Part shown: positions 1 through 21,446 of the stretch, one piece after another
How positions within the stretch are numbered: position 1 is the stretch's first letter
Layout: each line of letters starts with the position of its first letter
DNA from: Setophaga petechia
Taxonomy: Eukaryota; Chordata; Aves; Passeriformes; Parulidae
NCBI GenBank assembly: GCA_024362935.1
Contig: JANCRA010000003.1
Location: 1,237,501-1,301,500, forward strand
DNA: 64,000 nucleotides
Direction: 5' to 3'
Notes under the pieces: generated by a model
Seen by the model: only the letters and a program-made list of their open reading frames with translations
What the model was told of the DNA's origin: nothing
Databases searched by the model: none
Program-made: the position numbers and the translations under genes

Positions 1-1924
1 CATTTTCCAGGCAAGCAGCTGGGGATTTATCACTGTATTGCTGCATTTTGCAATCCCAGAAGATACTTCCATGTTTTCTCCACTGCCCTTGAGGTAACAG
101 CTCTGGCAGGTCTCATCCCTGCCTTTCCATGATGGCATTTTTGGGATAGGTGGGATGGACATTCCAAGCAGTGTCCATGCCACACACCTGGCTGATGCTG
201 GGGAGTGGGGGCTGGCCAGGCTGAGGTGGAGAGATGTTCTCAGAAGGATTTGGTGGCTGTGGTGCCAGCTTGGCACACACCTCACATCCTCGGATGTGCT
301 GACCCTTCTGGGCAGCTCTCTGCTCCATTTCCCTCCACATGAGCAGCACTTTGGACCATTTATCTCCAAGCACTGGGTGCACCTTCCCTACCAAAGGAGT
401 CTTCTTGCCTGGATTTCACTCCAGCCTCCAGGAGTCAGCAGCTCCTGTGGTTTCATCAGGAGGGATCCAGGAAGCCACAAAGCTGAACTGTGTGAAAACT
501 GCCCAGCCAGAGCCCACTGCTCCCCTGCTCTCCTCCCAGCACACAGCCCCACAGCCCCCAAATTGCTCTGGCATCTCTTCCATGTGCCCTCCCATGCCTG
601 GGAAACAAAGGAGGGACAGATGCAGTGCTTTTGAGAAGCTGGCTGCCCTCTCCCATTAGGATTCTTTGGGAATTCATGCTAAATGATCTTTGCTGATCTG
701 TACAAACTGGCTGCACACACATTTAATGTATGGGTCCAGTATTAATTCAGCTTGGTCAGGTCCATCCTGAGCAAGAACCTTTCCATTTGCAGCCTGTTGG
801 GTATGACAAGTGCTGTCATGTAGTCATTTCCAGTCTGTTGCCCTTTCTTCCTATGAAGAATGGATTTTCCCTCCCTCAGGAACCAGGCAGAGCAGTTTTG
901 GCACTGCTGCTGCAGCCCAGCATGGACAGAAAGTGAAGACAGGTCTAACAGAGGCACCTGCTGAACTGGTGAAGGTGAAGGCGACCACAGCTTGAGTTGG
1001 AGCCCTGTGAGGCAGGGACAACCTTTACTGCTCTGCATTTGCCCCCAAGCATGGCACAAGGCTGGTGTGAGCCCTCAGGAAATAAAGAGCAGCAAATCAC
1101 CCCATTTTACCAGCACAGCCAGCTCACCTGGCCGTAACACTGCTCCTAAAGGAGCAGGTGAGGCAATGAATCTCAATCTCACACATCTCAAAGCCTGCTG
1201 CTGTGCACCAGCAACAAGCACTCAGCTCCTCCAACTTTCCTTAAGGCTTTTTCCCCTCAAGGAAGAAACACTTAGGTAAATACCAAGCCTGCAGAATTCT
1301 AAATATCACACACACAATTCTGAGAAAAACAACAAAACCTCCTGCCTGGTCCATCAAACCCCAGCCCTGTCTGTAATTGAAGGCAGCCTGAGCCAGGTAG
1401 ATCGAAGGTCACGCTCTGCTGACCAGCACTGGACCGTGGCTCTTGCTTTGTTTTGCTCCTGGATGAATTCAACTCACAAAAAGGAATTACATTTTCATTG
1501 CTGGTTGGCTCAAACCAGAGACAGCACACACACCTTGCAGTTTTACAGCTCCAGTGTCCTCACCACACACACACCTGGTGGGAGAACAGCTCATTTCTGC
1601 ACAACAAGCAACTTGGGGAAGTACCAGGCAGCTCTTCAGGACATCTGACACTGAGGATTATAAACTCAAATGGTGCAGTTAAAGCCTGAGATTTCTACAG
1701 ACATTTAAGTCAAAAACTCAAACCTGAACATCAGGAGTGTTTTTAAGAAAGCTTTCCCTTTTGACCTCTGATTTATACAGTATGTACATTTTCAGCACAC
1801 TGACTTTTATTTGTTTCATTATCAAGGCAGTCAAATCTCCTGCTGGACAACATCACCACATTCCCAGGGACTCTGAGGTGTGATGTGAATTTGATGGGCA
1901 CTCCTAAAGGAACAAGGTTCTCTT
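1..1924. other. Non-coding stretch, probably intron 1 of the minus-strand SLC35F-type gene
   Basis: I see no exon, recognisable transposon or RNA gene here. Open frames are short and unlike known proteins. If the first exon at 2487-2562 is correctly called, this DNA lies just downstream of its splice donor and is therefore intronic. A very short CA run occurs near 1565-1575. Confidence 0.55.
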
Positions 1925-2241
1925 GTCTGATAAAGAGCATACAAAAGAATTCCCAATTTCTATCTTGAGGTTTTTTTGTATTAAAGAATTGCTTAAGAGC
2001 TGACACGTCTGAAAACGAAGGGGAAGAAAAGCACTTTAAGGGGACAACTGCTAAGCTGAGCTGAGGGACAGCAAGCACAAAAAAAGTTGGCGCCTCTGTC
2101 TTCACAGCAAAACCAATATACCTAGAGCACCACAGTAAAATACTCCAGAAAAGCCAATGACATTACATGGACCTAATTTCACATAATTTTAAAAGCCAGA
2201 ATTGAAGTACAACAACTTTACCCATTGTTCATGTTTCAACA
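1925..2241. repeat. Left copy of a ~0.3-kb direct duplication
   Basis: The core (1976-2240) matches 6331-6592 in the same orientation with about 8 substitutions and one 2-base change in an A-run over about 262 columns, roughly 97% identity by eye. Similarity continues more weakly leftwards to about 1925. I do not recognise the sequence as a named repeat: there is no CR1 tail and no TG...CA LTR ends. It is either a local segmental duplication or two copies of an unrecognised interspersed repeat. The copies lie about 4.35 kb apart on either side of the first exon at 2487-2562. Confidence 0.85.
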
Positions 2242-2362
2242 TCAGTTTCTTCACCAGGAATCGTTCACACAGCAGCTGAACACAAGCAACAAAAAATTAA
2301 CTGCCACTTATCCCAGATGATATTAAAGTGCTAAAAATGCTATCTGAGCATTACTTTAAAAT

Positions 2363-2395
2363 CACACACACACAAACACACACATACACAACACT
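2363..2395. repeat. Imperfect CA microsatellite
   Basis: About 33 bases of CA dinucleotides with AA and TA interruptions, lying 90 bases downstream (in the gene's direction) of the first-exon splice donor. Confidence 0.9.
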
Positions 2396-2486
2396 CCTGT
2401 TACTCTGCACGGAACAGAGCAGGAGGAGCATGCAGAGTGAACTCCTGCCTAGGATAAGATATACAGGGGGGAAAAAAAGCATTTAC

Positions 2487-2562
2487 CGTCTGGCACAGGC
2501 AAGTTTAACTCGGAAACATTGTAAGATGGTAGCGGTGCCACTCTCGCCGAATGTTTCTTCAT
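2487..2562 (-). CDS. SLC35F4: First coding exon of an SLC35F4/SLC35F3-type solute carrier (5' end of gene only)
   Basis: SLC35F proteins are multi-pass membrane carriers of the drug/metabolite transporter superfamily; SLC35F3 has been linked to thiamine transport. Read on the minus strand, ATG at 2562 opens 25 codons plus one base: MKKHSARVAPL, then PSYNVSELNLPVPD and a split Gly codon. The exon ends at 2487 and is followed by GTAAAT, a good donor, so the intron phase is 1. An in-frame TGA lies eight codons before the ATG, and A at -3 gives a favourable start context. MKKHSARVAPL is, from memory, exactly how one human SLC35F3 isoform begins, and its first block is also 26 residues; N, L, L and G recur at matching positions afterwards. 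The differing second half makes me favour the paralogue SLC35F4, with SLC35F3 the alternative. This short cytosolic N-terminal segment precedes the membrane domain, whose exons must lie left of the window. It may be one of several alternative first exons. Confidence 0.72.
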
Positions 2563-2775
2563 GCTCTGCACTTGCTCTGCTGCTCAGGGCTCACTCTGGC
2601 TCACTCTGCATCGCCCCTGGTCCCGAGTACTACAGCAAACGCGGGGCTATGGCTGGTGCTGGATGCTGTTCTGGAGATGCTGCAGGAGCCTACGAGTACT
2701 GATTTGCTGTTTCCCTGGGAAACCATGTGCAACACGTTCAAACAATGCTTGACCCCTGCCAACTTCTCTTTCATT
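2563..2775 (-). other. Putative 5' untranslated region with upstream open frames
   Basis: This lies between the likely core promoter and the start codon at 2562 on the minus strand. It is richer in CpG than the surrounding DNA. Two upstream ATGs are visible: one at 2774 opens a 57-codon frame ending in TGA at 2603-2601, and one near 2612 opens a 6-codon frame. If transcription starts near 2775 these could limit translation of the main frame, but the true transcription start is not shown by the sequence. Confidence 0.45.
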
Positions 2776-2860
2776 CAATTGTGGAGCGCAGCAGATAAAA
2801 TATAAACGTTATCAGCGGCGGCGCCTCGCGGACTCCAATCCGTGTCAGCCCCTTTGCAGG
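2776..2860 (-). promoter_or_regulatory. CpG-enriched promoter-like segment with TATA-like and CCAAT elements
   Basis: In minus orientation the order is GGATTGG (inverted CCAAT, 2835-2839 on the plus strand), a GCGAGGCGCCGCCGC-type GC block (about 2815-2830), then a TTTATATTTTA TATA-like element (about 2796-2806). A start 25-30 bases further would fall near 2770, about 210 bases before the ATG. CpG is rare in the flanking AT-rich DNA, so this local enrichment stands out. TATAAA also reads on the plus strand, so direction rests on the downstream exon. Confidence 0.5.
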
Positions 2861-3173
2861 AAATTGGGATTTCACATCAAATCTCTGCGCTGTGCTGGCA
2901 ACACAGCACACACAGGAGATTTCTCAGACAACTGCGAGGGAATTATGCAATGCAATTTTCTGGTTCCTTACACTGCGACAATATACGGATGATTATAGTA
3001 ATTATTTTAAGTAAACTTTGAATAATGGGGCTCCTGTAGAGCTGCTAAATCAGGAATGCCTCGGGCAAAAGAACAGGTGACATCCAGGTCTGTGTCTGAT
3101 AATAAAGCAGTGGTATTGCAGGAGGCTCTTCTAACACCCTACAAAAATTGTCACAACCAAGACAGATAGAGAA
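2861..3173. other. AT-rich flank of the promoter, no gene
   Basis: Unique-looking AT-rich sequence with scattered CpG and TAATTA-like words near 2995-3015. No open frame or repeat is recognised. It may belong to the regulatory region of the adjacent first exon, which only alignment could show. Confidence 0.3.
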
Positions 3174-3216
3174 ATATATATATATATAAGTATATATATA
3201 TACATATATATATATA
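3174..3216. repeat. TA microsatellite
   Basis: About 43 bases of TA dinucleotides with two short interruptions (AAG and AC). It is self-complementary and likely variable in length. Confidence 0.95.
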
Positions 3217-4267
3217 GGCTATGGCTGGTCTACATTTCTTCCTCACTTCCCTTGAGACAGCCAGGACATGTTTTGTCTCTCTTTCCCTGACACCTTCTCT
3301 CTCTTCTACTTCCTTATTACTACTATTAATATTTTTGGAAGTTGTTCACTTGGAGCAATGGAAAAGTTTCACTGAGCAAAGCAGTGTCAGCCCACACAAC
3401 TTCTGGAACTCTTAGAAGATCTCATCCCCTGGTGCAACCAGCACTGTGCTGGGAGCTTCCTTTGCCAGAAGTGGTTACTGACACCGCTAAAGAGCCCTGG
3501 CTCCAGAGCTCTTCACCAAGAGATCAACTATCAAGTTTTATCCAAGAATTTGTAGGGAGAAACATTAACCATTTATAATCAAGTGTTTGCTATAGGAACA
3601 ATGGGAAATAAAAAGGGAATGATCAGAAAGGCAGCTTAGCTCTCCCACAATCTGGTGGCAAAGCTGATGAATTTTTAAGGGTACTAGCCCTTTTATCTAC
3701 AGTCCTTGTGCTTTTGACAGCAGCTGAGAGTGGAGATTCTTGGCCCAGGGCTTGGTTCTTTTTTCCTCACTCTCCCACCAAAGAGGGAGAAGCCATGGCT
3801 CTAGGGAAGGCCAAAGTGGTTTGAAAAGGATGAAGAACAGCTGGGTTAGAATTCTCCAACTTGGGCTTCCTCCAGCACAGTGCTGGAATCTCACAGGATT
3901 TAGACAATAATGTGTTGTGGTTGGAGTGTGTGTGCAAGGACTGGTCCCTTCCCTAACCCTCAGGGAGGAGAGGGAAGAAGCAGAGTCCCAGCTGGAATAA
4001 TCCTTGGGATGCAGCCACAGCAGAGGACAGCACATGGGGAGAACTGTCCTGTGGCATCCTCCTGGAAGAGGCAGCCTGTGACTCCTCTGTACCCAGAGGG
4101 GCAGGAGGGGATTCTTGGATCCTTGGAGCAACCCACCAGGACATGATCACTTGATCCTGCCCTGCACATTCCTGTAAAGTTGCTCTCTTGTCCTTCTTTG
4201 GGGACTGAGTGGTCTCACATTTCTCTTGGGGCACAGTGACACAGCAGGGAAGAGACAGTGATTAACC
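3217..4267. other. Non-coding stretch, nothing recognised
   Basis: Short open frames only (longest about 144 codons on the minus strand, 3697-4131), with no family similarity and no splice pattern I would defend. No transposon recognised. Confidence 0.5.
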
Positions 4268-4413
4268 CTATGGAAAGGAGGGACAAAGTACCTCAATCCA
4301 CTCCCACTCTATGGAAAGGAGGGACAAAGGACCTCATCCCACTCCCACAGCCATCCCACCCTATGGAAAGGAGGGACAAAGGACCTCATCCCACTCCCAC
4401 AGCCATCCCACCC
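4268..4413. repeat. Short minisatellite, about 52-bp unit, near three copies
   Basis: Units begin with CTATGGAAAGGAGGGACAAA at 4268, 4309 and 4361, giving spacings of 41 and 52 bases. Each unit continues into a CCTCATCCCACTCCCAC block. The first unit lacks the trailing CAGCCATCCCAC segment, which accounts for its shorter length. Confidence 0.92.
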
Positions 4414-5695
4414 AGTGGGACACATCATGGAAGGAGCACAGGGAAGAGAAATGGTTACAGCTGTCTGGTTTCCCACCCAGCACATCCTGTTCTGAAAGGC
4501 TTGGAGATCTCCTTTAGCATCTTCATTATATCCCTGGTGACTCACAAGGCTCTCCACCATGACAGTCTATTCCAAAGCATCAACTGCACTGCCTTCAGCT
4601 AACTGGCTTTTACTGCTTATCTGCATTCAGAGGGTTTCCAGCACTGTGTAACAACCACCATTCCAAAGGAAATTATCTTCCCAATTTGCAGAAGGAATTT
4701 TATTCTCCTGTCCGAAGTGCTGAGAGTCAGCAGAGTTTGTGATGGAGTAATCACCAGTCAAGTAATTGCTGGCTCCACAATCACAAGGCTCCCTATTAAT
4801 ACATGTCTAGTCCTTGAGCATTTATATAATATAAACAACATAATAATATAACACAGAGATTGCTTTTAGAAAGCCATTTCTGCAAATAGGGGTTTATAAT
4901 GGAATCATTAATGAACCTTAACAATGGTGAAGATGAAACGCATGAGACAGTGTCAGGCAATTCCAGACATTTCTTCCAGACAATTTCAGCACTAACAACA
5001 GAACGTGACTGAATCTAAGAGTTGCTGCCTTTTTTTATTCAAAGGAGAATCAGCCATTGTTTCAACACTAAGTCAGAAGCCAAATTCAGCTCCTCAAAGC
5101 AATCTTTCAGATCCTCCCCCCAGCCATCTCTGCTTCCTAAAACAGTTACACAAGAAATGAAAGATACAAAACTGCTCAAAACTATGTGGAATTGGTACTT
5201 AGAACTTCCATCAAAGATTGCAGTTTGATAAGCATCAGTTCTCTGGCCACACAAGAGTGATCCTGGGCCATCTGTTTCTGCTCCAGCGTTTCTGCTCCTT
5301 CCTCTGTTCTATCTCTGCTCTACCTGTGCTGAAGAAAAGAGTAAAATAATATGGAGGGGAAGAGAGAGGAAGAATCTCTGTCCCTCCCTGCAATCATCCA
5401 CAAGTGCAATGTGATGACTGACTTGCCAGGATGGCAGAACAGTTACTCCAAGTAACTACTGCAAGACTACAAGTCAACAGAAAATCCACAGGCAGTGCCA
5501 CCTCACTCACCTCGAGCTCATATTTTCATTCAGAATAGGAAAATATCGGGGTTTCCCTCCAAAATCCAAGACTAAACTAAGTTTTCAGTTACTTTTACAA
5601 CAGCTCTTCACATGTTGTTGTTAGCTTCCAGTTCTGTGCTTTCAGCCTGGAACATGTTTTAAGTTTTCTTATTCTCAGAGTAATGCTCCTCATAA
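4414..5695. other. Non-coding stretch, nothing recognised
   Basis: AT-rich in 4800-5000. No convincing exon, RNA gene or transposon. Confidence 0.5.
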
Positions 5696-5699
5696 TAAA

Positions 5700-6125
5700 C
5701 AGTAACAGGCTCTGGAGCACAAGTCTGAGGAGAAGCAGCTGAGGGAGCTGGGGGGGGACAGTCTGGAGAAAAGGAGCTCAGGGGGCACCTTGTGGCTCTG
5801 CACAGTTCCCCAACAGGAGTATGTAGTCAAAGGAGGTTGGGCTTTGTTCCCAGGGAACAGGGATGGGACAAGAGGAGATGACCTCAAGTTAAGCCAGGGG
5901 AGGTTTATACTGGATATTAGGGAGGAAGATTTCTTCATGGAAAGACTTGTCAAGCCCTGGATCAGGCTGCCCAGGACAATGATTGAGTCCCCATCCCTGG
6001 AGGGATTTGAAAGATGTGTGGCTCTGACACCTGGGGACATGGGTTAGTGATGAGCTTGGCACTACTGGGGGAATGGTTGGACTCAATGATCTCAGAAGTG
6101 TTTTCCAATCTAAATTATTCTATCA
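5700..6125 (+). mobile_element. CR1 LINE, 5'-truncated 3' fragment
   Basis: Contains the ordered CR1 3' landmarks: the block ending in CTCAAGTTAAGCCAGGGGAG, then TTTATACTGGATATTAGG, CAGGCTGCCCAGGA, CCATCCCTGGAGGGATTTGA, and finally TTGGACTCAATGATCTC with TTTTCCAATCTAAATTATTCTAT. It is one of the longest and best-preserved CR1 pieces here. CR1 retroposons have no poly-A tail and integrate with heavy 5' truncation, as seen. Confidence 0.93.
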
Positions 6126-6261
6126 TCAATCTACATGGCAAATTATTCTCCCTCAGGATTCCCTATTTGTCAAGGAAGCCTGCAGTGTGAATCACAATCA
6201 CAGCAGTGTAAGTGATAACCCAGGCTGCAGGCGTGCACCCTCCACACCTGCTCCCAGTTAA

Positions 6262-6593
6262 GGCAAAAACTGATGGGGCACACAATTCCGAGTTTCTATC
6301 TTTCTGGTTTCTGTATTTCTGTGTTTTTTCTGTATTAAAGAATTGCTTAAGAGCTGACAGTTCTGAAAATGAAGGGGAAGAAAAGCACTTTAAGGGGACA
6401 ACTGCTAAGCTGAGCTGAGGGACAGCAAGCACAAAAAAAAAGTTGGTGCCTCTGTCTTCACAGCAAAACCAATAAATCTGGAGCACCACAGTAAAATACT
6501 CCAGAAAAGCCAATGACATTACATGGACCTAATTTCACATAATTTTAAAAGCCAGAATTGAAGTACAACAACTTTACCCGTTGTTCATGTTCA
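6262..6593. repeat. Right copy of the ~0.3-kb direct duplication
   Basis: Partner of 1925-2241, in the same orientation. The core at 6331-6592 is about 97% identical by eye. A short T-rich insertion or expansion (about 6305-6330) separates the core from weaker similarity further left. Unlike the left copy, it lies directly after a CR1 fragment, so CR1 is not part of the duplicated unit. Confidence 0.85.
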
Positions 6594-8814
6594 GCATTAT
6601 TAGGAAAGGAAATCAGTGAATAAAGTGTGTCTCAGGACACATTCCTCATGCCAGCCAAGAGTCCTTGTGCGTGGAGGCCTCTGCTCCACATCCCGTTTGC
6701 TCCTCCCCACCCTCCCTGCAGCACTGTGCGTCCCTGGGCTCAGTAAATATTCATCCAGACGAGGGCAGGGTGAAGCTGCAAGCTTGCTGACTCACTAACC
6801 AGACAGCAAACCAGCCCTGGCAGCAGAGTCAGGGCTGGGGAGTGCTGAATCACATCCACTAACAAGCCTTGCACTCTCCAGCACAGAGGGGCTGATGCTA
6901 TCAAAACTCACTCTGCTCCCTGGCTTACCCCACTCTGCTGGCACTAGTTACTACTCATACATATTTCAGGGACCTACTGCACAAGTAAAGGTTCTTTACT
7001 CTTCTCTCTGGAGCTGCAATCACAGCTGGAGTTGAGCTCCAGGCAATCACAGGTTTTCTGATCCAGAGAGGATGGCAGGTGTGGTGTAACACACCCAAGG
7101 AAGGCAAATCATCACAGCTAAAGGAAAACAGATGCATAACGACCTGGAACAATGAATTTACATGTTGATAATGGGATCCATCTAATTGGACTTTGGATGC
7201 CAAAGTTTGAACCAGCCACACCAACATCTTTATAAAGTGAGTGGTGAGAAAGTGGTAAGGTTAGGAGACAACTCACAGCCTCCTCTCCTGCAGGTGTATT
7301 ATAACCTGATATTAGTAACTCAAGGCACCCACTTCTTCCCCCTGGCTGTGATGGCAGTAATGTGACTTGCTTCCACCTGCTCATGTGGCTTTTAGATAGC
7401 CTGGGAAGGGCAGATGCTCCCAATGGGAAGCACAGTGTGGGAATGCCTGATAAAGACATGAAAGTGTTTCTTTGACTTTAACTGATTTTAGAACAGTGCT
7501 CAGATCCAAAACTGTGCTGTTTGCTAGTTTTGAACACCTCTACCTACAAGATCCATCTAAAATCCACTTTGCATATGTCCCTCAGCCAGCAGGTCAGTCC
7601 ATTCCCAATCACTAGACTGTAAGACTCTCATAAACAAGACTTTTATAGGCTCTTCCAGGCTGAGCCTGTGTTTTAAGATGACAAGCTAAAAGGCCATTAT
7701 CAAGTTCATTTTATCCCTCTGGAATACCAATTAGATGCAAGATGCAGAAGAGACAAACAGTCAAACTGAGATCAAAACAGACATATCCTACAAAGGAATT
7801 TTTATGTACAGCGAAGTCAAGACTTCAGTTTGAACTTTTACTCGCTTCTAGCAAAACCAGAAACATGCAGCAAATGCTTCTTGAACAACTCAATCCAAAA
7901 CAACTTCCAAGGCTCACAGAGAAAAGAACCCTTCCCCTCTCTGCTGTGCCCAGTCATGTTATATGGATTTTAAAGAATCAAATTCTCAAGTCCTTACTCC
8001 GTCTGAACTCTCACTGGCTTAAAAACTGTCAGATATTCCTGCTCAGCATTGAGAAAATCAGCAAAGCATTTCATTGCCAGGCAGGGGAGGATCCTCCAGC
8101 CCTACCACAATCACTGGGCTGCTCAAACCTTGTCCCTTGGTGCTGTCCATGTCACCAAAGATGCTAAACCAGATCCAAAAGTGACCCCTCATAAGCAGGT
8201 GTGATTTAATTGAGAGTGTTCACATTGAAGGCAGTCTACAGTTTCATAAGTTTTTTTCATTGAGGCAAAACTGGACTTTAACCAGAATTTCCTGTATTTT
8301 GCAAATGCCAAGAAGTAGAGTAACTCTCTAAAATCTCACCTAATGACTGCAAGAAATACCTACTAAACCTGAAGCCATTTTAATGCCCTTGGGGGCTGCA
8401 TGTTTGTACACTGATCTCTGGTTGACATTAACATGAGTTGCTATTTTCAGTGAATCAGCCCAAGAACTCACTCTTTAATACCCTGATTTTGTAACAGAAA
8501 AACACAATGTGATCTATTTTTAGCCTTCCCTAGCAGGCAAGTCCTGGAAATAAGATAAACAGGACCAGCTAAACATCCACTCCAAGATGACAACGTGAAG
8601 ATGTGCAGGGGTGCTGCAGGACAGCAGCTCCCACACCACTGAAACCAGTCCAAAACACTCAGACCACCTATGGGGATTTTTGGAAGGAATTTTGAATGAG
8701 TTACAGATGGGACCTCTGAGTTTTTTAGATGATGTGGTTTATTTTCTTTTCCACATGGGCAGGAAGGGTGAGTTCATTCACATCTTCACTGTATGGCTCA
8801 GAAGGTCACAAGAC
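6594..8814. other. Non-coding stretch; one chance-like 141-codon open frame
   Basis: The plus-strand frame at 7742-8167 is 141 codons and not in a recognised repeat, but its protein resembles no family I know and has no domain-like pattern. No other feature is supported. Confidence 0.45.
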
Positions 8815-9250
8815 CCTTAGTTACAAGACCTTTCAAGGATTTATTGACCAATGAAACACTGCCAACAAGGATATTTATGGTTTTGACCCAATCCTTAAAT
8901 ATTTTGTCTTATGGACTCATGCTACAGTGTAAGCTTCCTTATCCAGTCATGTTATGACACACAAACCTACAGTGCTGCATTCTAAACTCCTTGTTTACCT
9001 TTGTAACTATTTTTATTTTTTCTGTATCTTAAACTCTAAAACTCTAAACTTTCCTCCACTTAACGTGTCTCTGCTTTAAACTACAAATCCACATTCTCAC
9101 TTCCAGCACCTAAGTTTGGAAGCCTCCTCCAAGGTCTCAGATCAAATCCTGTGTTTAATTCTAAGCTTTGGCTTACAGGCCCAAAGTTCTGAGAGTTTTC
9201 CTTGCATTTTGGATTCCAACAACCACCCACAGCCAGTGGTCTCTTGGCTA
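8815..9250 (-). mobile_element. Degraded endogenous-retrovirus LTR fragment
   Basis: Shares ordered blocks with 38210-38660: a TACAAG...CCTTT...AAGGAT block, TTATCCA, a CTTAAACTCTAA/TTTTCC block, then TTTGGAAGC..CTCC..GG.CTCAG and a GGATTCCAACA region. A minus-strand AATAAA (plus-strand TTTATT near 8840) suggests minus orientation. It is old and diverged, so boundaries are approximate and no target duplication was found. Confidence 0.6.
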
Positions 9251-9274
9251 CTGATGCCTTGGAGTGGCTACCTA

Positions 9275-9672
9275 GAAAGGAGGTTAGACAAGATTAAGAG
9301 AATAAAGTGGATATTTATTAAAGGCACACCTTGGGCAGTCACAGCCTCTGAGGGGCTACACCCAAGCTGGGCAATGGTCATGAGTTTTTCAGACAATTTC
9401 AAGTTTGATCCATTTACACATCAGGGGTTAATCCTCCAAGTATAGCTTCAGGTAATGAAGTCATACACCCTCAGTTTGCTTTCCCACAAATTCACTTTTA
9501 TTTACACTTTTGGGGCCTGAGGCTGGAGGGTGTCCTTGGATTTCAGGCCTAGAGGGATTGTTTTGTCTGATCAAAATGTGAAAAACAGTAACTAACACTT
9601 CATATGGAGTTTAGAGTAATGCAGTAAAGAATTTGAAAAATATAAAAGCTAAAATCCTAATGCATCACTACC
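9275..9672 (-). mobile_element. Diverged solo LTR, same family as 14.6 and 21.4 kb copies
   Basis: Matches the LTRs at 14649-15109 and 21447-21904 in order: ATTTATTAAA, GGGCTACACCCAAG (partner GGGCTACACCCAAGATG), ATGAAGTC, TTTTGGGGCCTGAG, ATTGTTTTGTCT and AAATATAAAAGCTAAAAT near the end. Minus-strand AATAAA is present. It is the most diverged of the three copies and its left end is unclear. Confidence 0.7.
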
Positions 9673-9689
9673 AGTGGCCAGGTCCTCTA

Positions 9690-9790
9690 TCACAGAATGG
9701 TTTGGGTTGGGAGGGAGCTTTAAATCTCATTTAATTCAGCCCTCTGCAATGAGCAGAGACATCTTCAACTGCATCAACCACATCACATGT
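9690..9790 (-). mobile_element. CR1 3'-end fragment
   Basis: Begins CACAGAATGGTTTGGGTTGG, the reverse complement of the CR1 3' terminus, followed by a diverged GGAGCTTTAAATCTCAT block. Only about 100 bases are recognisable. Confidence 0.8.
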
Positions 9791-10394
9791 TGGTGTCTCA
9801 GCCTAATGGAAGTCCCACCTTGACCCTGCTCTGTCCAGCTCCTTCCCCTCTGCCTCTGGGCCTAAGAAGAAACACTTGAAACCCAAAAATATCTGATTCC
9901 CTCACCCCCTCCCTCCACAAGCACTTAACTGACTTGGAAGCAGCAATATCTTCTGCTACAGCGCTTTTGGGAAGATTTTTATTTACTAAGTGATTTTATA
10001 GACCTGACAACCAGAGTGCTCCTGGGAAGCACTAGGATTAAATTTTCAATTAAAAAAAAACCTCAGGTTTTCCTTAATCACGCGAATTTTGAAACATAAA
10101 CCACCCACCCACAAGGATGAGGAAGTACATGGTGATGTCTCCAGAGCTGGAAAAGCAGCTTCTCAGGCTTTTTATTCTGCTGGAATATAGAAATATCATA
10201 CAGCAAGAAATATTAAACTCTTAATGCAATTAAAGATGGAAGGAAAAATAGTAATTGTGGGCATGGAGAGCAATTCTTCAATTTTAATAAAAGTCATGCA
10301 GTGTTTCATGGAAACAGCAAATGTATCAACTCTGATGCATCTTCAATATTTTGCATCAAAGAAGGAAGAAAAAAAAAAAGTAAGAAAAAAAAAT
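9791..10394. other. Non-coding stretch, nothing recognised
   Basis: Contains an A-rich run near 10360-10392. No exon or transposon is supported. Confidence 0.5.
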
Positions 10395-10505
10395 ATGGAT
10401 GTACCCCAAGCAACCTGTGGTAGTGGAAGTTGTCCCTCCCCATGGCAGGGGGTTGGAATGAGGTGAGCTTTAATGTCCCTTCCAAGCTAAACCATTCTGT
10501 GATAA
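10395..10505 (+). mobile_element. CR1 3'-end fragment
   Basis: Ends with CATGGCAGGGGGTTGGAATG, then AATGTCCCTTCCAAGCTAAACC and ATTCTGTGAT, the standard CR1 terminus. Confidence 0.85.
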
Positions 10506-10879
10506 TATCAGGTTGACAAAAATATTAAGAAGTTACCTCCAGCATTAGAAACTCATTCCTATTTACAGAAGAATCAGAAGGAAAGGAAAATTGAAAAAAA
10601 CAAATGGAAAACCAATGAAAAACCAAAAAGGAAATTTTTCCTTCAAGAGGAACTTAATTTCATGCACAAACTGTTACTGGCCTCAGAGCCTCTGCCAGGC
10701 TGCATGGATCCTAATCCTGAAACACCAAGACAAAATGTGTTTAGTACCCCATCATGAATTTCAGCTTAGGGGCCTTACCCACAGCCAGGCATGGAGAAGA
10801 GCAAGAAACTCTTGGGGAACACACAGAAATCTCACTTGGAGCATGCACAGACCTCATCTGAGAAAGCAGAGCTCACCAG

Positions 10880-10975
10880 GCTCCCTACAACCCATCCCTC
10901 CTGCTGAAGGTGGGAGGATTTAGGTGACCTTTATGTCCCTTCCAATCTCACCCATTCTCTGCTTCTGTGATCTTA
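10880..10975 (+). mobile_element. Diverged CR1 3'-end fragment
   Basis: GTGACCTTTATGTCCCTTCCAATC followed by CCCATTCTCTGCTTCTGTGAT matches the last ~60 bases of CR1 with several substitutions. The segment to the left is too degraded to place confidently. Confidence 0.65.
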
Positions 10976-11219
10976 TCATTTGAGAAGCAGTGCTGCCAGC
11001 AGGGCAAGGCCACGAGCTTCTGAAAAACTCAAAATCCAAGCGTTCCCCAAGCTGCATTTCAAACTCTTTCCACTTTTTAAGAGTTTAGGAGAAAGGTTCC
11101 TGCTTCACCCTGGCCACTCTGAAACTCCCTGGCAGTAAAACACAGCCCAAGTAGACAACCAGCACCAGTCTGCTCAATAACAAAGCATAAATTGAGTATC
11201 CATTCCAAATATCCAATGC

Positions 11220-11520
11220 AGCCTTTCTAGACAGGATAATAAAATCAGACGCCCAACACTTCTATTGTGGTTTTTTTTCCCAAGGAAAACAGCTTGGATG
11301 TAATTGCATGTCAGGTAATTATTTGCCTTCCCAATGTTTTATTAACAAAGCTGCCAGGAGTGAAATAAGCTGTCTGCATTTTCTGGTTCTGCAATTATGA
11401 AGTGCCTCTTCTTTACCACAAGAGAGCATTTGAGTTGAGAAAACTTCCATTTTGTGCTTGTCATCGTGACTGTAGAGCATGTCAGTGTGGCAGTAAATCA
11501 CTCCTCATATTTGCTGTGCT
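11220..11520. other. Repeat-free AT-rich block, possible conserved non-coding element
   Basis: Contains GTAATTGCATG and GGTAATTATTTGCC words (octamer- and homeodomain-like) and a stretch of unique-looking sequence between repeats. No open frame of note. The suggestion of conservation is inference from composition only. Confidence 0.25.
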
Positions 11521-11986
11521 TTGGGTAGCCAGCAGTTAATGAGATGGCTCAGGGCTTCTTGCAATACCATCAATCAGAATTGCATAGCAGGCTAGAAATC
11601 CAGGGCTGGCCAGTCCCAAAATTTAGCCACCAGCATGTTCTTGTCTAGATAGGTTCTGTGGTAGGGATAGGAATTGCATCATCCACCACTGCAACCCCTA
11701 CCACTCCAGATGGCTTCAGAAAGTTCCTTGGATGAAGAAATATAAATAATTATTAAGGAAAATTACAAAAAAAGATGAAGTTTGTTGCCTTGTTAGTGGT
11801 GCTCCATTACATTTCTCAGCCCTTCTGATTTTAAAGGCTGGGTGCAGAATTCCCAGAGCTTTTGAAGCAGGACCTGAAGCTTCAGCAGAGATGTGAAAAT
11901 GGATTAAAGCAATCAGAAATCTGTGAAAAAAAAAACCCCACATGTGTGTGTGGGGTCAAACAACTTCAACAAGACAAGAGGGGAGA

Positions 11987-12085
11987 CAGAAAATCAGAGA
12001 ACAGCTTGGCTTGAAAGGGACTTTAAAGATCACCTGGTTCCAGCCATCCTCATGTGCATTTTCCTGCCCAAGAGAAAGGGCTCAT
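11987..12085 (-). mobile_element. CR1 3'-end fragment
   Basis: AAATCAGAGAACAGCTTGGC followed by TTGAAAGGGACTTTAAAGATCACC is the reverse-complement CR1 terminus. It fades after the CCAGCC block. It sits about 100-200 bases from an oppositely oriented CR1. Confidence 0.8.
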
Positions 12086-12224
12086 TAGGCATGTCCATGC
12101 AGACCAGGCCAGGACCAGGGGGCTTTAGTTGCATTAATGGGAAGTTCAGTGGGACAGCAGGTCAGCTGTTCCACAAGGAGCACAGTGAAGCACTCAATGA
12201 GATGATGTCAGGCAGAAAACTCCC

Positions 12225-12492
12225 AGTGCTGGAAGATTTTCAGACCAGGCTGCCCAGGATGGATGGAGTGGAGTTGAACAGCTCAGAGCAGGGGGACAGA
12301 GCAGATCCATTTTCCAACAGGCTGCTCAGGGAACTGGTGGAGTCCCCATCCCTGGAGGGATTTCAAAGCCCTCTGGATGTGGCATTTGGGGACATGGGTT
12401 GGTGGTGGGTTGGCAGTGCTGGGGGAGCAGCTGGACTGGAGGATCTTGGAGGTGTTTTCCAACCCAAATCACTCAGTGACTCTGTGACTCAA
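12225..12492 (+). mobile_element. CR1 3' fragment
   Basis: Carries AACAGGCTGCTCAGGGAACT, GGTGGAGTCCCCATCCCTGG, GATGTGGCATTTGGGGACAT, GGCAGTGCTGGGGGAGCAGC and TTTTCCAACCCAAATCACTC, ending in GACTCTGTGACT. A long open frame across this region (201 codons, 11923-12528) is only a read-through of the two CR1 pieces. Confidence 0.9.
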
Positions 12493-13984
12493 CCTCTATT
12501 CATGGAGCTAGTAACAAAGAGGTGCTAATAATAAAGACCAGCTATTATTAGCTGGGCTGACAAGGAAAACTAGGGTGAAGGGAGCCTGCTGAGAGCTCAG
12601 AATGGGTGTCAGAAGTAGAATGTTCTGTAGAATTCCCAGAGAAGCATCCCACCCCTGCATTCAAATCACTGCAGGTGGTGTTTTCCAATCTCTGCAGAAC
12701 AGGGAATGCAAGACCACTGTTAAGGAAATGTTAGAAAAGCTGTCAGCAAGCACCATTTCTTATTCATTATTTGTGTGTCTTCTTTGGAAGGAATGGATAC
12801 CTGAAAGTCAAAACAGCCTCACACCCACCAGCACCAGACAATTACACAAGATTCCTGAGGGAAATGTGAAGTCTTGGGAAAGGCTTTTATGGCAGAGCAG
12901 AAAGGGATTCACTGAACACACAGTTGTAGCTTTTGAAGGAAAAGTGACCAAATCCTGATTCAGAGGCTGGCTCTGATTAAGACCCTAGAGTAAGATTCAT
13001 TTCCAGTAGCTCTTGAGAGTTAAACATAAAATCTACCCCCTCTTGGTTTCTGCTATTTTATTTAAAAGTGTTTTAATTTTCCACTTTAAGTGCTGACCTA
13101 ATTGAAAGGTGCCTTTGCTCCTGCAAAATTTCAGCTACATCAATTTACTGATGGTGAAACAACAGCCCAAAACCTCAGCTCCTGAGATCCCTGCTCCTCC
13201 ACAGCCAGGCCTTAGAGTTGGAGGTTAAATAATTGTGGTTATAAAGGCTCAGCACAAAACATTTTCCAGCGCCCACAGAGCCCTCTGAAATCTGTGATCT
13301 GAGTGAGTGTCAAAGTCCACCTGCACTCATCAGCAGGGAGGATGCTCATGTGTACCTGATCCAGCAGAGAGATCCCATGTGAGTTTAATTTCCCCTCTTT
13401 TTTTGCCTCTCATAATTTGGATCCACTTTTTGAAAAAAAAAAAAACCAAATAAAACCAGATGACAAATACAGCTAGTAGCAGCCTGAACATAACCAGTGC
13501 TGTAGCTCAAGAGAATTCTTTTGAACAGCAGCAACTTTTTGAATTTTCCAGAAGAAATTCTCTATGAATTTTTGGAAAAAAACCAGTAAAAACCTTGTGC
13601 TATAGAAATTAAAAATTGGGGTACTCAGAAATCTCCAACCAATTGTGAATGTTTCTTGTCTAATCTTCACATAATCCTCCTTAATACCTTTCAGTGTAAA
13701 TCTCTGCTACGTGCAACATCTTATTAGCAAGACAATAAAGATAACACAAGAAAAGTCACTGAGCAGCATTAGGGGATTAAGGGAGGATTAAACAGTCGTG
13801 ACACAAAGAAAATGTTGAAGCTGAGTATTCACCATAATTAGTCTGGTTCCTCATACTCTCCCTGGGTCAATTACCCAAGTGTCTGGATGGACTCAGGTGA
13901 TGAGAGCAGACAGGACTCAGACATTGTCTCATGACTGGTGATGGTTTGCAGTGTCAGAGAGGGACATGGACACTGCTCTAACAT
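12493..13984. other. Non-coding stretch, nothing recognised
   Basis: An A-run of about 13 bases sits at 13433-13445. No exon or recognised transposon otherwise. Confidence 0.5.
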
Positions 13985-14232
13985 ACATGACAAGCTGAGT
14001 AAGGAGGAGAGATTAAACTGGATTTTAAGAAGAAATTCTTCCCTGTCAGGGTGGGCAGGCCCTGGCTCAGGGTGCCCAGATAAGCTGGGGCTGCCCCTGG
14101 ATCCCTGGAAGTGTCCAAGGACAGGCTGGATGGGGCTTGGAGCACCCTGGGATAGTGGAAGGTGTCCCTGGCATAGCAGGGGTTTGGAATTGGATGGTCT
14201 TAAAAAGTTAATTCCAAAACATTCTGTTTGAA
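13985..14232 (+). mobile_element. CR1 3' fragment abutting a TA microsatellite
   Basis: Shows GATTAAACTGGATTTTAAGA, CAGATAAGCTGGGGCTGCCC, GGATCCCTGGAAGTGTCCAAGG, GGCTGGATGGGGCTTGGAGC and GGTTTGGAATTGGATGGTCT in the CR1 order, ending with CCAAAACATTCTGT. The TA repeat begins two bases further on. Confidence 0.88.
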
Positions 14233-14233
14233 C

Positions 14234-14261
14234 ATATATATATATATATATATATATATAA
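14234..14261. repeat. AT microsatellite
   Basis: 28 uninterrupted bases of AT, immediately downstream of the CR1 3' end. Confidence 0.97.
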
Positions 14262-14648
14262 CAAAATGAGTGGTAAAAGCGAAACAGGCTTTTCCTGGAG
14301 AGATCCTGCATTTCTTGAGGATGATTACACCTCCTAGCAATGTGGTTTCATGGGTATGTCTCTCTCCCAGAGAGGAACTGGCAGCCCCATGCACTACAAA
14401 ACTCTCCCAGGGGTACTGGGACAGCTCACCCTCCCCACAGCCATCCCCCCCTGGGCTGGGGAAGCAGGGACACCTCCACTGTGACAGAGGAAGCCCAGTC
14501 AGACCAGATTTACCTGGTGGATATGGGAAGTATTTGTATGAAAAGTCTCCCCAGGTCCTCAGGCCACTCACAGAACTGAGTGATGCTTCCAAACCAGGTG
14601 GTTCCAAGTGAAACTGATCCCAGTAAAGAGATCCCTGCTGCCTCTCAG
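14262..14648. other. Non-coding stretch, nothing recognised
   Basis: Open frames on both strands cross this segment but none resembles a known protein. Confidence 0.45.
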
Positions 14649-15109
14649 TGCCCAGGGGAGATGCATTGTGAAGGCTGACCTAGAACAAAGGCTGGACTGA
14701 GCTAAAGGATTAAGCAGGGATTTATTAAAAGGCCTCAATGGATCCACCTTGAGCAGCACAAGAGCCCAGCCAGGGCTGCACCCAAGATGAACCAAAATGG
14801 TCACAAAATTGACAACTGGTCACGGGGTCTCTCACTTTTAGAAGTTTTGGTCTGTTACCATATTGGAGTTAATTGTCTAATTACAGCTTTAGGTTATGAA
14901 GTCCCAGCCTTCTTGTTTTCCCTCTTCAGTCCACATTGTTTGTGCTCTTGGGCCTGAGATCTGGATCATTTGGTCCCCAGCAAGAGAAGGAATTGTTTTG
15001 TCTTCCTACTCTGTGAAGAGAGTGTACTGTCTCCTAATATGAAGCTGAGAACTACACACTAAAGCAGCACAGAATGTGAAAAATAGAAAAGCTAAAACCT
15101 GAGGCATCA
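14649..15109 (-). mobile_element. Solo LTR, copy 2 of a three-copy family
   Basis: Closely similar to 21447-21904 throughout: GTGAAGGCTGACCTAGAACA, CAGGGATTTATTAAAAGGCC, CACAAGAGCCCAGCCAGGGC, ATGAACCAAAATGGTCACAA and a right end GCTAAAACCTGAGGCATCA. Minus-strand AATAAA lies in the ATTTATTAAA block. The right end ending in CA is clear at 15109. The left end is uncertain (14649 by alignment, or 14667) and I could not find a matching target duplication. Confidence 0.82.
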
Positions 15110-15788
15110 GGGGGAGTGATGTACCCCTGCTTTCACTGGCTCCCTGAGCAAGGCTTTGCAGGAGCTGAGATCTGCACCAGCAAGATCCAGTGGCCATCCA
15201 CAGCCTTGAAAGGCCAGTGCACTCTACCTTTTTAAAAATCCACCCTGAAAGAAATTCTAACTCAATACTTAAAATCAAGCTATTTACTGCCACAGAGCAC
15301 AGTATTGATCTGGCCTTGGTTGAACGTGTCAGAGGTAAATCAGAGTCTGTGGCAGGATTCTGTGGAGTTGTTGAAGAGCCCATCTCTCATTAGAGAATGA
15401 GCTGGGCTCTCAGGACTCAGTCCCCAAAATTAATGTGGCACCCAGGGGTTCCCTTACATCCCCTGCTAGCTATTGGCACCTTCCAGCCCCTCTGCTCACA
15501 GTACCTGATTGTCATGCATTATCACAGATTATTTGGCCAGAGCAGGCCAAATTCATATTCCCTGAGAGACTCAGCAGGGGAAACACAACTTTCCACAGCC
15601 TGTGGGACAGAGCTGCTCACTCAGCTCTTATTTCTCAACACCTAAGGAGGAATTGCCCCTTTTTTCCAAAATCTTTCAGGACTTGAAATCCATTTTAGTG
15701 AAAATGGTTTTTAAAGACCTTTTTTCTTTCCCCTGATGACTCCCTGGCAATGTATTGCCCCAGCCTTGCAATAGGTCAGAGCACAACA
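15110..15788. other. Non-coding stretch, nothing recognised
   Basis: No exon, RNA gene or transposon is supported. Confidence 0.5.
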
Positions 15789-15828
15789 TTTGATATCAAA
15801 ATATTTGATATCAAATATTTTTGATATC
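15789..15828. repeat. Clustered palindromes TTTGATATCAAA
   Basis: A perfect 12-base palindrome occurs at 15789-15800 and again at 15804-15815. A third partial copy (TTTGATATC) lies at 15820-15828. The spacing is 15-16 bases, and the 40-base block can fold back on itself. Confidence 0.9.
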
Positions 15829-15892
15829 CAGTGCACGAAAGGGCTCCTTCCAGTAAGTGCTCTCTGGGGCACATGGGGATCATGAGTAATCA

Positions 15893-16215
15893 CAGAACAA
15901 CAGAAATAATAAATTAGTTAATAAATTCATTAAGGTTGGATAAGAACTCTCATGGACTCCAACCATTAACCCAGAACCACTGTGCTCACCACTAAGCCCT
16001 GTCCACAGATTTTTAGATGTAATTTTCAGTAATGTTGAACATTTTCAGTAATGTTGATTCCACTGCTATTCCAAATTCTGACCACTCTTTTAGGGAAGAA
16101 TTTTTTCCTAATATCCAATCTAAACATCCCTTGGGACAACTTGAGGCCACTTCCTCTGGTCCTGCCACTTGTTATGTGGGAGAAGGAACCAACCCCCACC
16201 TGGCTACAGCCTGGT
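15893..16215 (-). mobile_element. CR1 3' fragment
   Basis: Reverse-complement CR1: ATTAAGGTTGGATAAGAACT, GACTCCAACCATTAACCCAG, GACCACTCTTTTAGGGAAGA, CCTAATATCCAATCTAAACA, GACAACTTGAGGCCACTTCC and CCCCCACCTGGCTACAGCCT in order. A short internal duplication (AATTTTCAGTAATGTTGA, about 16021-16056) has replaced part of the middle. Confidence 0.9.
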
Positions 16216-18450
16216 GTCAGGAAGCAGCACCCCAGGGATAATGGGAATGCAGGAATATGGTGCAGAGGCCCTGGAAGAGCACACAGACTTTTCTGCTTCC
16301 TATAGATGTGTCCTGACAGCAAGAAAACCTTGCATTAGTTTTTCCATGCACGTAAAATGCCTGTAGGCCTCTCTCTGCAGGAACTTGGTGCAAATGCAGA
16401 TTCCTGGCAGGCTCAGTCAGACTGAACACACTTTTTACTCTCTCCACCAAAACTTCAAGAGCATGAAGAAGGGGAAAAAAAAAAAAAAGGAGAAAAGGGA
16501 AAAACAGATCTCCATGTGTCATGGTCACCTGAACCTCCCCAGCTCGCAGCTCACCCAGCAACTCTGTATTCAGGGGCACAAAAACTGCTCTAATGATTCA
16601 CAATACCCAATGAACTTACCCTGAGGACCTCCAAGTCACCCTGTTCTGCTCCAGCTCTGTTACAAGTGAAGCTCCCTCACACCATGCTCTCTTTTGAGCA
16701 GCAGTTTTCCCTCAGGGATTGTCCCACCAGTGATATTTTGAACTGGTTTTACTCCATGATACACCACCCAGGATGGTTTTCCCTGCTCCCAGGAATCCTG
16801 TTCCAGGAGAGCTTCTCCAGCTCTCTTCTCCTGGGGTTTGAAGCAACTCAGCATTAACTTACCAATTACTGCAAAAAGGACTTTGCAGAGGGTTTCACTT
16901 GTTCTTTCACCAATCCTTTCTCTGTTCCACGTGTTCCCCTGTCCCCTGCCCTGTCCACTGTGGAATCTGGGGTGCTTAACATGACTCTCCTGGATGACAA
17001 AAGCAATATATAAAAGTATGGAAGAATCTGGCCCAGGTGCAGCATCTTGCCCTCGGTCTTGTTAAACTGTGTGAGATTTCCCTGCCTGGATGAGGTAACC
17101 CCAGAACTGAGGAGTGATGCTGAGCTGGGCTCTGATATGGGGAAAAGGAAAGTTGTTCTGAAATTGATCCCCAAAGGACCTTGTGATGGTTTTGTTGGGG
17201 TAAGAGGGGAGCTGAAAAACAGGAGAAGAACAAATGGCTGAGCATGCACAGCTCATGAACTAAGTCTGGAAACTGATCATGAAACACAGCCCTCATTCCT
17301 TCCAGAGGAGCACAAGCTCCTGAGTTCCAGGCTCAGGAACTCCTGATCCTCACCAGACCAGATCCACCCTGAAGGATCCCAGAAGGAGCAGCAGGAGGGT
17401 GCTGGCAACAGAGGAAGCTTTCAGAAACCCCATAGGCCAAATTCAGCTTTAACCTCCTCTTTCTGTAATCCCTGCTTGCTTCAAGTAGCTGTGTAAACAC
17501 TGTTCCCAAAGAGGGAAAAGCTGTGTTGGGAAATGCAGGCTGAGGCAGCTGCTCTTCCTCCAGCACAGCTCAGAGCAGTGGAACAGGATGCCAAGTACTT
17601 CTCTTGGCATAGGATATCACAGGAGGCTCGGAAGGAGAAGTTGGAGGCACTTGAGCTAACAAAGAAAACCTGTTTTGGATACTCTTTCTGCCTGATACTC
17701 TGTGTATGTTCAGGTTTTGTAGAGCAGAGCCCTGGGTAACACAGCTGTAAACAGAGAAATGCAGCAGCCACATCCTCTGAGGCTTTTAATCATCCTCTAC
17801 CTGTGCCTTCCTAACCAGGGGCACAATTTAATTACAAAAGCACAGCTGCCAAAAACACAGGCAAAAGCCCAGAACTATTTTTCGTGGTGGCAGGTAAAGC
17901 AAGTATTTCTCTTTGCAGTGTCAACAAGCATCTATCAAACTGGCTTCTCTTCTGTCATTCCTTCCCTTCCAGCTCCAGCTGCAGCTCCCTCTTATTCTGC
18001 TCCCAGGCAATTCACACATGGGGGTTTTTCCCTAAAGCACAAAGAAAATTGAAACACAAAATTGATGGTGAGATTTGGCCACTCCTTCCACTTGCAGAGT
18101 CCTTTTTCCCAACCTATCCCAGAGCAAGATGAACCCATAAGGAGACTCCAGCAGAACAAATCCATCACCTCCCTTGATGATGTTCTCAGTTGCATGAGCT
18201 GCCAGGGCATGGGTGAAGTTGCCACAAGGGCCACACTCTTCGATGATCATCCTGCTGTGTTTCTAGAAAATCCTAAACTAGAGAAGATTAATTGCTTCCT
18301 GGCCCATTTCCCAATGCCTGCCTGGCTCAGCAGCCTTGGAAGCATGAAGGTGAGGGGAGGATGCAGAGCTGCTGAGCAATCCATCCTTTGGTGCTCAGCA
18401 GCGTGTGCTGAGGGCAAAAAACCAGGCTGGAAAGCACCAGGCAGGGCTCC
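16216..18450. other. Non-coding stretch, nothing recognised
   Basis: Contains an A-run at 16475-16488. Many short open frames on both strands, none like a known protein, and no recognised transposon. Confidence 0.45.
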
Positions 18451-19121
18451 TGTCCTGGACTGCCAAGCAAATTGTATTCCATTTGCCATCTGGATGGCAG
18501 TGGCCTTCTATTAAGTGGGCAGTTTTCCTTATCTCTTCCACAATCACTCCTCCCTCAGGAGGGGACATCTGCTGATAACAGCTATTGAATGTCCCTGCAT
18601 GGCTGATAAGAACTACAGCATCCCATTGGGAGATGTGAGCCCAGAGGGAGGAGCCAAGCATTCCTACCCAGATATAATCTGGAGATTCTGGAACACCAGC
18701 ACAGCTTCTGCACTGGATTCCCAGAGGAACAGCAGCTGCCTCTTCCACTGGATCTTCAGAGGATGACTACACCCTTCTCTACAGGATCCCTGCTCCAACA
18801 GAACCACCCCTGGCACTCCAGGAGGGCTGCAGCCACAATTCCAATGGGACTGCCACCAACACCCTGACCCACAGGGTGTCAGGTTGGGTTCTGACTCTGT
18901 CAGTGTTGTTCTAGTGTACTGCGTTGTTTATTTTATCCTTTTATTTCCTTCCCTAATAAAGAACTGTTATTCCTGCTCCCATATTTTTTTTTGCCTGAGA
19001 GCCCCTTAATTTCAAATTTATAGCAATTCAGAGGGGTGGGGAGGGTTTACATTTTCCATTTCAGGGGAGGCTCCTGCCTTCCTCAGCAGACTCCTGGCTT
19101 TCCAAACCAAGACCAACGAGT
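18451..19121 (+). mobile_element. Endogenous-retrovirus solo LTR
   Basis: Matches, from memory, an abundant songbird LTR: it starts TGTCCTGGACTGCC, runs through TTAAGTGGGCAGTTTTCC, CTACAGCATCCCATTGGGAG and GTGTCAGGTTGGGTTCTGAC, and has AATAAA at 18955-18960 followed by GAACTGTTATTCCTG and a GAGAGCCCCTTAATTT block. The polyadenylation signal sets plus orientation. The right boundary is approximate (the sequence ends in an AAACCAAGACCA block) and I found no clean target duplication. Confidence 0.85.
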
Positions 19122-20997
19122 TCCCAGACCAACCCAGTCCCTCTGAGCTTTAACACATGGCACTGGCCACAGCAGAGACAGAGTGGCACATGCTCCCTGT
19201 GTCCCCAGCCAGGCCAGCAGCAGTGGTTTAGGTGGCATTTGTGAATTCCTCCACCCCAGGAAGGAAAATAACAGAGCTGCTGCTTCCCCCAGCACTTCCA
19301 GCTGTATTTTGGCTGTTTTGCAGCACGGGAGCAGCTCCCTCTTACAGGAACCAATCCATATGAAAATCTGCACCTCTAAATTATTTCCCTTTGCACTGGT
19401 GCAGTGCTGGCTGGAAATTGTGATTTCAATTAGCTTAATCACTGAGGTAATGCCCACCTTTAAAACACAAACAGCAGCACCCCCAACCGAGTGCATTTTC
19501 AGGAGCACAACCAAGCTGGCCCTGCTCTGATTTCCATCAGTTCATTGCTTGTCCAAAATCAAAGACCAGGAATTCTGTCTGTGGGTATTTCCAGTTGTGC
19601 TCATTAGTGTGGTAACTCAGTGCTACACACTCAGCTGGACAATTTGACTGGAGCTGAAGACTAACCCAGGAGCCACCATGATATACCCACAGCTGTATTT
19701 TTCCATTTGCCAAAACTCCAGATTCTTATTTTAAAAAAATTTCTCACTTAGGCTTCTGACTGAATCCTTGTTGTATTCCCATGGACAGCAACTCTTGCAA
19801 TGACTGCAGGGGAATGGAGCTGGCACCACTTCAGGACCATTACAGGGAGACAGAGTTCTTGGTTACCTCCAGCCATAACTCACCAGAACATTCCTGCAGC
19901 AGGTCTGCAGATGATTCCCTTTCAGCAATGTTCAGATCAGGGTAACAATTCCAGCCTGTGGCCGCATTTCAAAGGGAAATTATGGATTTTGTGATTTGTG
20001 AATTCAAGAACTTGCAATTTGTCACCTCAGGGATGTAAGTGACTTCACAGTCACCCATTGAGAACTTCATGTTATCCTTTCACATACAGGAACCTCCCTC
20101 CCCAAACCCCCCACCTCACTCTGCTGCTTGGCAAGGATCTGACCTGGAACAAACTTCCAACCTGTCCATGCCTTGATCCCTCCACTGACAACACACTTGT
20201 GGAGATCAGGCTCTTCCATCCCTGCCCAGGACCCAAATATGAAAGTGACCTGATTTCCAGGAGTCCTGAGCATCACCAATCCCCACTGAAATCAAGGGTA
20301 ACAACAGGATCCAGCACCTCAGGAAACGAGGACAGGCACACTCTGAGGTGCCTGGGCACAGATTTAGAAGCGTGGTTGAAAATCTGGCCTGCTAATTTTA
20401 CTTTCCAACAAACTGCTCCTTATTTATAGCTCAGACTGGATCAAGTATAGCACGTAGTATCCACCCAGGAACTGGGGTGAAAGGCAAGAATGAGGACAAA
20501 AATGCAAGAGGTGTTTGAAAAAGCTCTAAAGAAGAGAGGGGGAGGGAAAGCAGCAATTTTGTTCCAGTGAAAATACACTGGGTATTTGAGAAGAAGCACA
20601 GTGGAACACAGAGCAGGGAATGGACCAATGGTTAAGGGATGCAGAGCTCCAGAGCACCTGATGAAGTGAGCAATGCTATTGTCCAGAAAATGAGGCTGAG
20701 ACAGGGAATATGGAAACTGGGAATCTGCAGAGTTCCAAGCACTGGTGATAGCCCTGGACTCACCCAGCAGCTGATCTGAAGCCTTCAGGAAGCTCTGCTG
20801 ATGGAGCTGATGCTTACAGAGCTTCACATGATGCAAAATTTAAAGGATTGCCTATTTATGACATGGAATTACAGACAGGTGTAATTCAAAATAAACAGGA
20901 AGGAATAAGCAGTGAAGCTCAACACTAGAAAAGCAGGTGTAATTCCTAATAATTCATCTAACTGGTATCTCCACAATGGCATCAGACTCAGGAACAG
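19122..20997. other. Non-coding stretch, nothing recognised
   Basis: No exon or transposon is supported. Open frames up to 143 codons (19083-19514 minus) partly overlap the preceding LTR and look like chance. Confidence 0.45.
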
Positions 20998-21055
20998 CCA
21001 CAGAATCATTTAGGTTGGAAAAAGCCCCTAAATGATCAACTCCAGGTGTTAGCCA
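20998..21055 (-). mobile_element. Short CR1 3'-end fragment
   Basis: CCACAGAATCATTTAGGTTGG followed by AAAAAGCCCCTAAATGATCA matches the reverse-complement CR1 terminus. Only about 58 bases. Confidence 0.8.
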
Positions 21056-21446
21056 TCTATTATTTTTAATTTGTATTCCCTGGGGAAGATGTTTTCCCTT
21101 CCAAATTCCTCTCCAGATCACTGAGGGTTAACCAGCAGCAAAACCACCCTGGAAGTGCAAGCACAGCAGATGCCTGGTCTGCCTCTCCAGAGGCTCCTGT
21201 GCTCCCAGGATCCTTCTCCTGCCCATCCACACGTGCTTCCATGCCTGGAGGAACCCTGCAGCATCTCAGGAGAGTCCACTGTTCCCTCTTGTGCCACTCA
21301 GGCTGGCCCTTCTCTGGTCCTGGACTCCTGGACACCTCACCTCAGAACACAAACACCCCTCCTGCACCATGAATTCCCTGGAAACCTGCAGTGCCTCCAA
21401 CTCAAGCTGCACTCTCCTGTTTCTCTTGCCTCCTGCTTGCACAAGG

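Follow-up and report, generated by a model that had tools for sequence, protein, structure and literature searches.

Our findings place the exon at positions 2487 to 2562 of the window (the whole 64,000-nucleotide stretch analysed here, C3:1237501-1301500, C3 being the contig that carries it) in SLC35F4, an identity that is settled by the exons around the window. The exon sits in the gene's long first intron, which also holds the rest of the window, its donor is compatible with the acceptor of the next SLC35F4 exon, and related exons are present in other vertebrates. Judged from these features, it very probably serves as first coding exon for an alternative transcript of SLC35F4 that would start from a second, CpG-rich promoter within that intron; we infer that this proximal promoter is active and that the transcript is produced. 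The exon thus gives the whole window its identity, strand and gene context. As the gene and the exon type are both known, what is new is an exon of this type unseen among bird representatives, and the result is one of gene annotation rather than a new kind of system. The features are as follows.

2487..2562, minus strand: predicted first coding exon of SLC35F4, alternative and proximal, with 25 codons and one extra base (phase 1), MKKHSARVAPLPSYNVSELNLPVPD(G); from sequence, tblastn with SLC35F3/F4 proteins and the in-frame join to exon 2.
2481..2486, minus strand: splice donor GTAAAT; from sequence, its phase fitting the SLC35F4 exon 2 acceptor.
2584..2586, minus strand: in-frame TGA stop 5' of the ATG; from translation.
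2591..2611, minus strand: short ORF upstream, from ATG to TGA (MQSEPE), in a different frame; from sequence, relevant if the 5' UTR extends there.
2501..3000, no strand assigned: CpG-rich stretch covering the exon and the sequence upstream of it, 22 CpG per 500 bp; probable promoter and 5' UTR.
1..64000, minus strand: everything else in the window, intronic sequence of SLC35F4 bounded by the distal first exon (C3:1323870-1323768) on one side and exon 2 (C3:1228477-1228287) on the other; from the flanking exons.

The original prediction had described a minus-strand exon with an ATG, 25 codons, a single trailing G and a GTAAAT donor, all of which can be read directly from the DNA (window 2562-2487, minus: ATGAAGAAACATTCGGCGAGAG...CCAGACG, then GTAAATGC), and translation finds the in-frame stop that it placed before the ATG (TGA, 2586-2584, minus, at a distance of seven codons). 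An A three bases before an ATG is favourable for a start site and position -3 of the exon ATG is A; the upstream ATG of the MQSEPE frame lies at position -49. At +5, where the donor consensus is G, the exon donor has A. The first 11 residues, MKKHSARVAPL, have a chance expectation of 9e-10 over all six reading frames of the window, and 71 of the 226 proteins from our SLC35F3/F4 searches match the window from exactly position 2562 (tblastn; best E 1.2e-5, against 0.007 for the same proteins elsewhere in the window). As a control, none of the 226 reversed proteins started at 2562, and their best E anywhere in the window was 0.01. Pfam and solved-structure searches with the 26 residues of the exon alone gave no match.

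The flanks examined were 200 kb on the left side of the window and 50 kb on its right. In the left flank, the bird SLC35F4 protein P0170 has seven minus-strand matches at C3:1228475-1204658 (83-100% identity, tblastn; several slightly overrun the exon ends), the first of which (C3:1228475-1228287, minus, 100%) corresponds to SLC35F4 exon 2 at C3:1228477-1228287, minus strand, left of the window. Exon 2 is 100% identical to bird and 79% to turtle SLC35F4, and the next match 95-97% against 84%; this greater closeness to birds, a distal exon identical to that of birds (see below) and the CR1-like repeats point to a bird genome. A stretch of 19 P0170 residues (198-216) found no match in the left flank, where the next match is bordered by 60 consecutive N. 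The common SLC35F4 exons (C3:1228477-1204658, minus) hence bear out the leftward transcription that had been proposed, and the SLC35F gene expected within a few hundred kb in that direction is present about 11.5 kb from the exon, the distance to exon 2 being 11,509 bp. The acceptor of exon 2 reads TTTCTTCTCAG followed by GT GCC TCA (it ends in TTCTCAG before the GT), so that, after the last G of the window exon, the split codon is completed as G plus GT and encodes Gly, as had been claimed. The join is open, in frame and in phase 1 (...LPVPDGASRSSVIQCKPGGN...). Some SLC35F4 entries (P0222 from pigeon, P0151 from turtle) start with NSFFSG, which corresponds to translation of the intron just before exon 2 (C3:1228478-1228514); since this segment matches the intron's polypyrimidine tract and AG, their N-termini are probably annotation artefacts.

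To the right of the window, at a distance of 22 kb, lies a distal exon (C3:1323870-1323768, minus) that is 100% identical to the bird start exon MDGKAAPNGVATIEDRILRITGYYGYYPGYSSQKS (MDGKAAPNG...) and has the donor A followed by GTAAGG. It is upstream of the proximal exon by 83,705 bp and contributes 103 nt of coding sequence, the window exon 76 nt; both end in phase 1 and both give open in-frame joins to one acceptor, that of exon 2. SLC35F4 exons flank the window on both sides, so the gene spans all of it, and the window exon is predicted to be an alternative first coding exon. The proposal that this is the first coding exon of the gene therefore holds in part: it would start the coding sequence and join exon 2, yet it is not the outermost one, because the distal exon lies upstream. 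No further convincing SLC35F4 match was found in the window (tblastn).

The bin from 2501 to 3000 has the most CpG of the window's 128 500-bp bins (22; the next has 10 and the median is 1) and ranks ninth of 528 across the 264-kb stretch. CpG is denser at the distal promoter, whose island has counts of 38 and 44 in two neighbouring 500-bp bins; the peak at the exon would fit a promoter, short of proof. Upstream of the exon we also note a palindrome, GTTTCCCAGGGAAAC (window 2709-2723), which we take to resemble an RFX X-box, and a TATA-like TTTATATTTTA at window 2806-2796.

A different view would see the exon as a relic, that is, an ancient SLC35F4 first exon whose frame is still open although its transcription has ceased in this lineage. 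Consistent with this, none of the nine named bird SLC35F4 representatives begins with the window exon, while five of them carry the distal start exon (the other four are two fragments beginning SRSSV and two with different starts), and tail residues 12-25 are identical to any other class at no more than 5 of 14 positions. Our protein database holds 90% cluster representatives only (P0170 stands for 617 sequences), and such clustering may hide isoforms, so the exon's absence in birds is a statement on representatives only. Against a relic, the open frame comes with all 11 conserved residues and an intact phase-1 donor, and a CpG-rich stretch would be expected to decay without germline hypomethylation. 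We therefore regard a relic as improbable and favour an alternative first exon in use.

Three protein searches bear on the paralogue. Search 1, probed with the window's 26 residues plus a human SLC35F3 body, gave 425 proteins (120 listed); among the matches listed (120 of 425), 56 carried the motif, in an exon (MKKHSARVAPLSACNSPVLTLTKVEG) that varies little between sharks and mammals; pigeon P0026 and quail P0041 are among these 56. Search 2, whose scoring used the 26 residues and a further 14 from SLC35F3, gave 12 matches from 16 candidates; 11 of them bear the name SLC35F3, the twelfth, an unnamed mouse product, has the SLC35F3 exon, and none of these matches is an SLC35F4. Search 3, with the SLC35F4 body, gave 110 matches (106 new), mostly named SLC35F4 and some hypothetical or unnamed. 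Eighteen of the 106 start with the M[KR]KH exon type; they come from sharks, elephant shark, sturgeon, bony fish, two frog genera and a cobra, the last having an extra stretch between the M[KR]KH block and the ASRSSV exon, and none is from a mammal, though hidden cluster members are possible. Residue 26 is Gly in 15 of these 18, Asp in two from one frog species, and Ala, followed by an insertion, in one fish protein. Where the acceptor motif was found (34 of the 106 proteins), the junction residue is G, S, C or R in 32, which fits an exon starting with GT since these are the residues it permits, and D in 2 (one frog species). Two entries are probably mislabelled: P0073 (Xenopus), which carries the SLC35F3 exon and is named condensin-2 subunit H2, and P0112, which is named SLC35F4 and has an SLC35F3-type N-terminus.

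The fetched SLC35F3 proteins confirm what had been proposed, that residues 1-11 of the exon are identical to the SLC35F3 N-terminus (in many vertebrates) and that N15, L19, L21 and G26 are kept together with the 26-residue block length. These shared features are what would speak for a first exon of SLC35F3 itself. ACNSPVLT at positions 13-20, present in all 56 exons of SLC35F3 type among the matches listed (120 of 425), is absent from the window exon, and in BLOSUM62 scores over tail residues 12-25 the window exon is closer to SLC35F4 than to SLC35F3: it scores 29 with frog SLC35F4 P0121 (the best; reached by 0 of 5000 shuffles) against at most 4 with any of nine distinct SLC35F3 exons. The eight further distinct SLC35F4 exons from bony fish and frogs score 17-23, those of two sharks 13, and that of the elephant shark 5, not above the SLC35F3 level; the cobra exon was not part of the set. 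Sorting to the nearest class by tail score assigned all 22 distinct known exons correctly (9 SLC35F3, 13 SLC35F4), with near copies kept in, a choice that eases the sorting within bony fish and within SLC35F3. The genome agrees with the tail: pigeon SLC35F3 (P0026) has six matches in the left flank, in the same places as the SLC35F4 exons, at 37-80% as opposed to 83-100% for bird SLC35F4, and none at exon 2 (tblastn). The assignment to SLC35F4 made in the original prediction is thus supported by tail scores and neighbouring exons alike, and SLC35F3, barring contig misassembly, is rejected by those exons as hardly credible. Just as implausible is a processed copy or stray exon fragment without a gene, which we reject on the flanking SLC35F4 exons, as the similarity ends at the exon boundary with other sequence beyond, the exon is placed and oriented between two SLC35F4 exons, and the 301-bp stretch around it has one match genome-wide (1.22 Gb, 687 contigs).

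Among its relatives, the SLC35F4 short form of frogs (P0121 from Ascaphus, P0150/P0204 from Leptobrachium) is like the window exon in its MKKHSA start and in a 26-residue block that runs straight into the TSQSSV exon (P0121: MKKHSAKVSPLTSFSISELQTAIADG followed by TSQSSV, 477 aa), and differs in that only 5 of 14 tail residues are identical and, in Leptobrachium, in a junction Asp instead of Gly. The SLC35F3 short form (MKKHSARVAPLSACNSPVLTLTKVEG), in turn, has the same first 11 residues and block length and is likewise an alternative to a longer N-terminus, one containing an ITGYYGYxP segment; it belongs to the paralogue, however, and its tail, nearly invariant in the 56 found, is identical to that of the window exon at 2 or 3 of 14 positions. 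The distal-promoter form of bird SLC35F4 (MDGKAAPNG..., P0170) comes from the same gene and shares everything from exon 2 onward, whereas its first exon differs and lies 83.7 kb upstream.

Residues 62-94 of an SLC35F3 long form (P0027) match the distal SLC35F4 exon (58%, E 9e-7). Both kinds of start are hence found in both paralogues, which suggests a layout older than the SLC35F3/SLC35F4 duplication, the SLC35F3 layout being deduced from proteins. With some reserve, we lean towards a model in which a two-promoter arrangement (a distal ITGYYGY start, a proximal MKKHSARVAPL start and one phase-1 acceptor) predates the duplication and, having been retained from sharks to birds, has a selected role for the 11-residue N-terminus, for example in sorting or regulation; its bird SLC35F4 isoform would be one that is absent from the representatives searched. 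For SLC35F3 and SLC35F4, both orphan transporters, an alternative N-terminus common to the two may alter localisation.

As to the product, initiation at the proximal CpG-rich promoter and leftward transcription would yield an RNA in which window position 2487 (phase 1, last base G) is spliced to the common exon 2, which lies 11.5 kb further on and begins with GT, to encode MKKHSARVAPLPSYNVSELNLPVPDGASRSSV.... The protein is predicted to have about 477 residues (the 486 of P0170 minus 35 plus 26), with an unchanged transporter body behind an N-terminus of 26 residues as against 35 in the distal-promoter form. This N-terminus would presumably be cytosolic, and a role in sorting or regulation is our guess.

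The substrate of SLC35F4 is unsettled. In PMC12786601, a docking-based argument has SLC35F4 import FAD into the Golgi, SLC35F3 and SLC35F4 are placed as sisters, and SLC35F4 synteny is reported to be shared across vertebrates including birds; the words exon, isoform, N-terminal, N-terminus and chicken have no occurrence in its main text. Open-licence PubMed Central literature gave no match to the string MKKHSARVAPL and nothing for SLC35F4 with 'first exon', and in the passages of PMC10216814 that match SLC35F4 and 'isoform', the latter term refers to NOS.

Over the window as a whole, scans with Rfam (gathering threshold) and for tRNAs gave no hit, and Pfam searches with 10 of the 62 window ORFs of at least 110 aa gave no family. 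Window-wide, CpG observed/expected is 0.08 (246 CpG in 64 kb), below our expectation for a bird intron, and a second CpG cluster (window 56951-57500, 10 per 500 bp) looks like a repeat or LTR fragment and not a gene. A direct repeat of about 267 bp occurs twice, with 96% identity and 4.35 kb apart, once on each side of the exon (window 1971-2235 and 6325-6591); the copies perhaps arose by two insertions of a single young interspersed repeat, or by local duplication. Further repeated stretches are window 45613-45657 and the repeat families D1, D3, D4 and D6, one with an array of the 8-mer TCTGTGAT, and these we presume to resemble bird CR1 3' ends.
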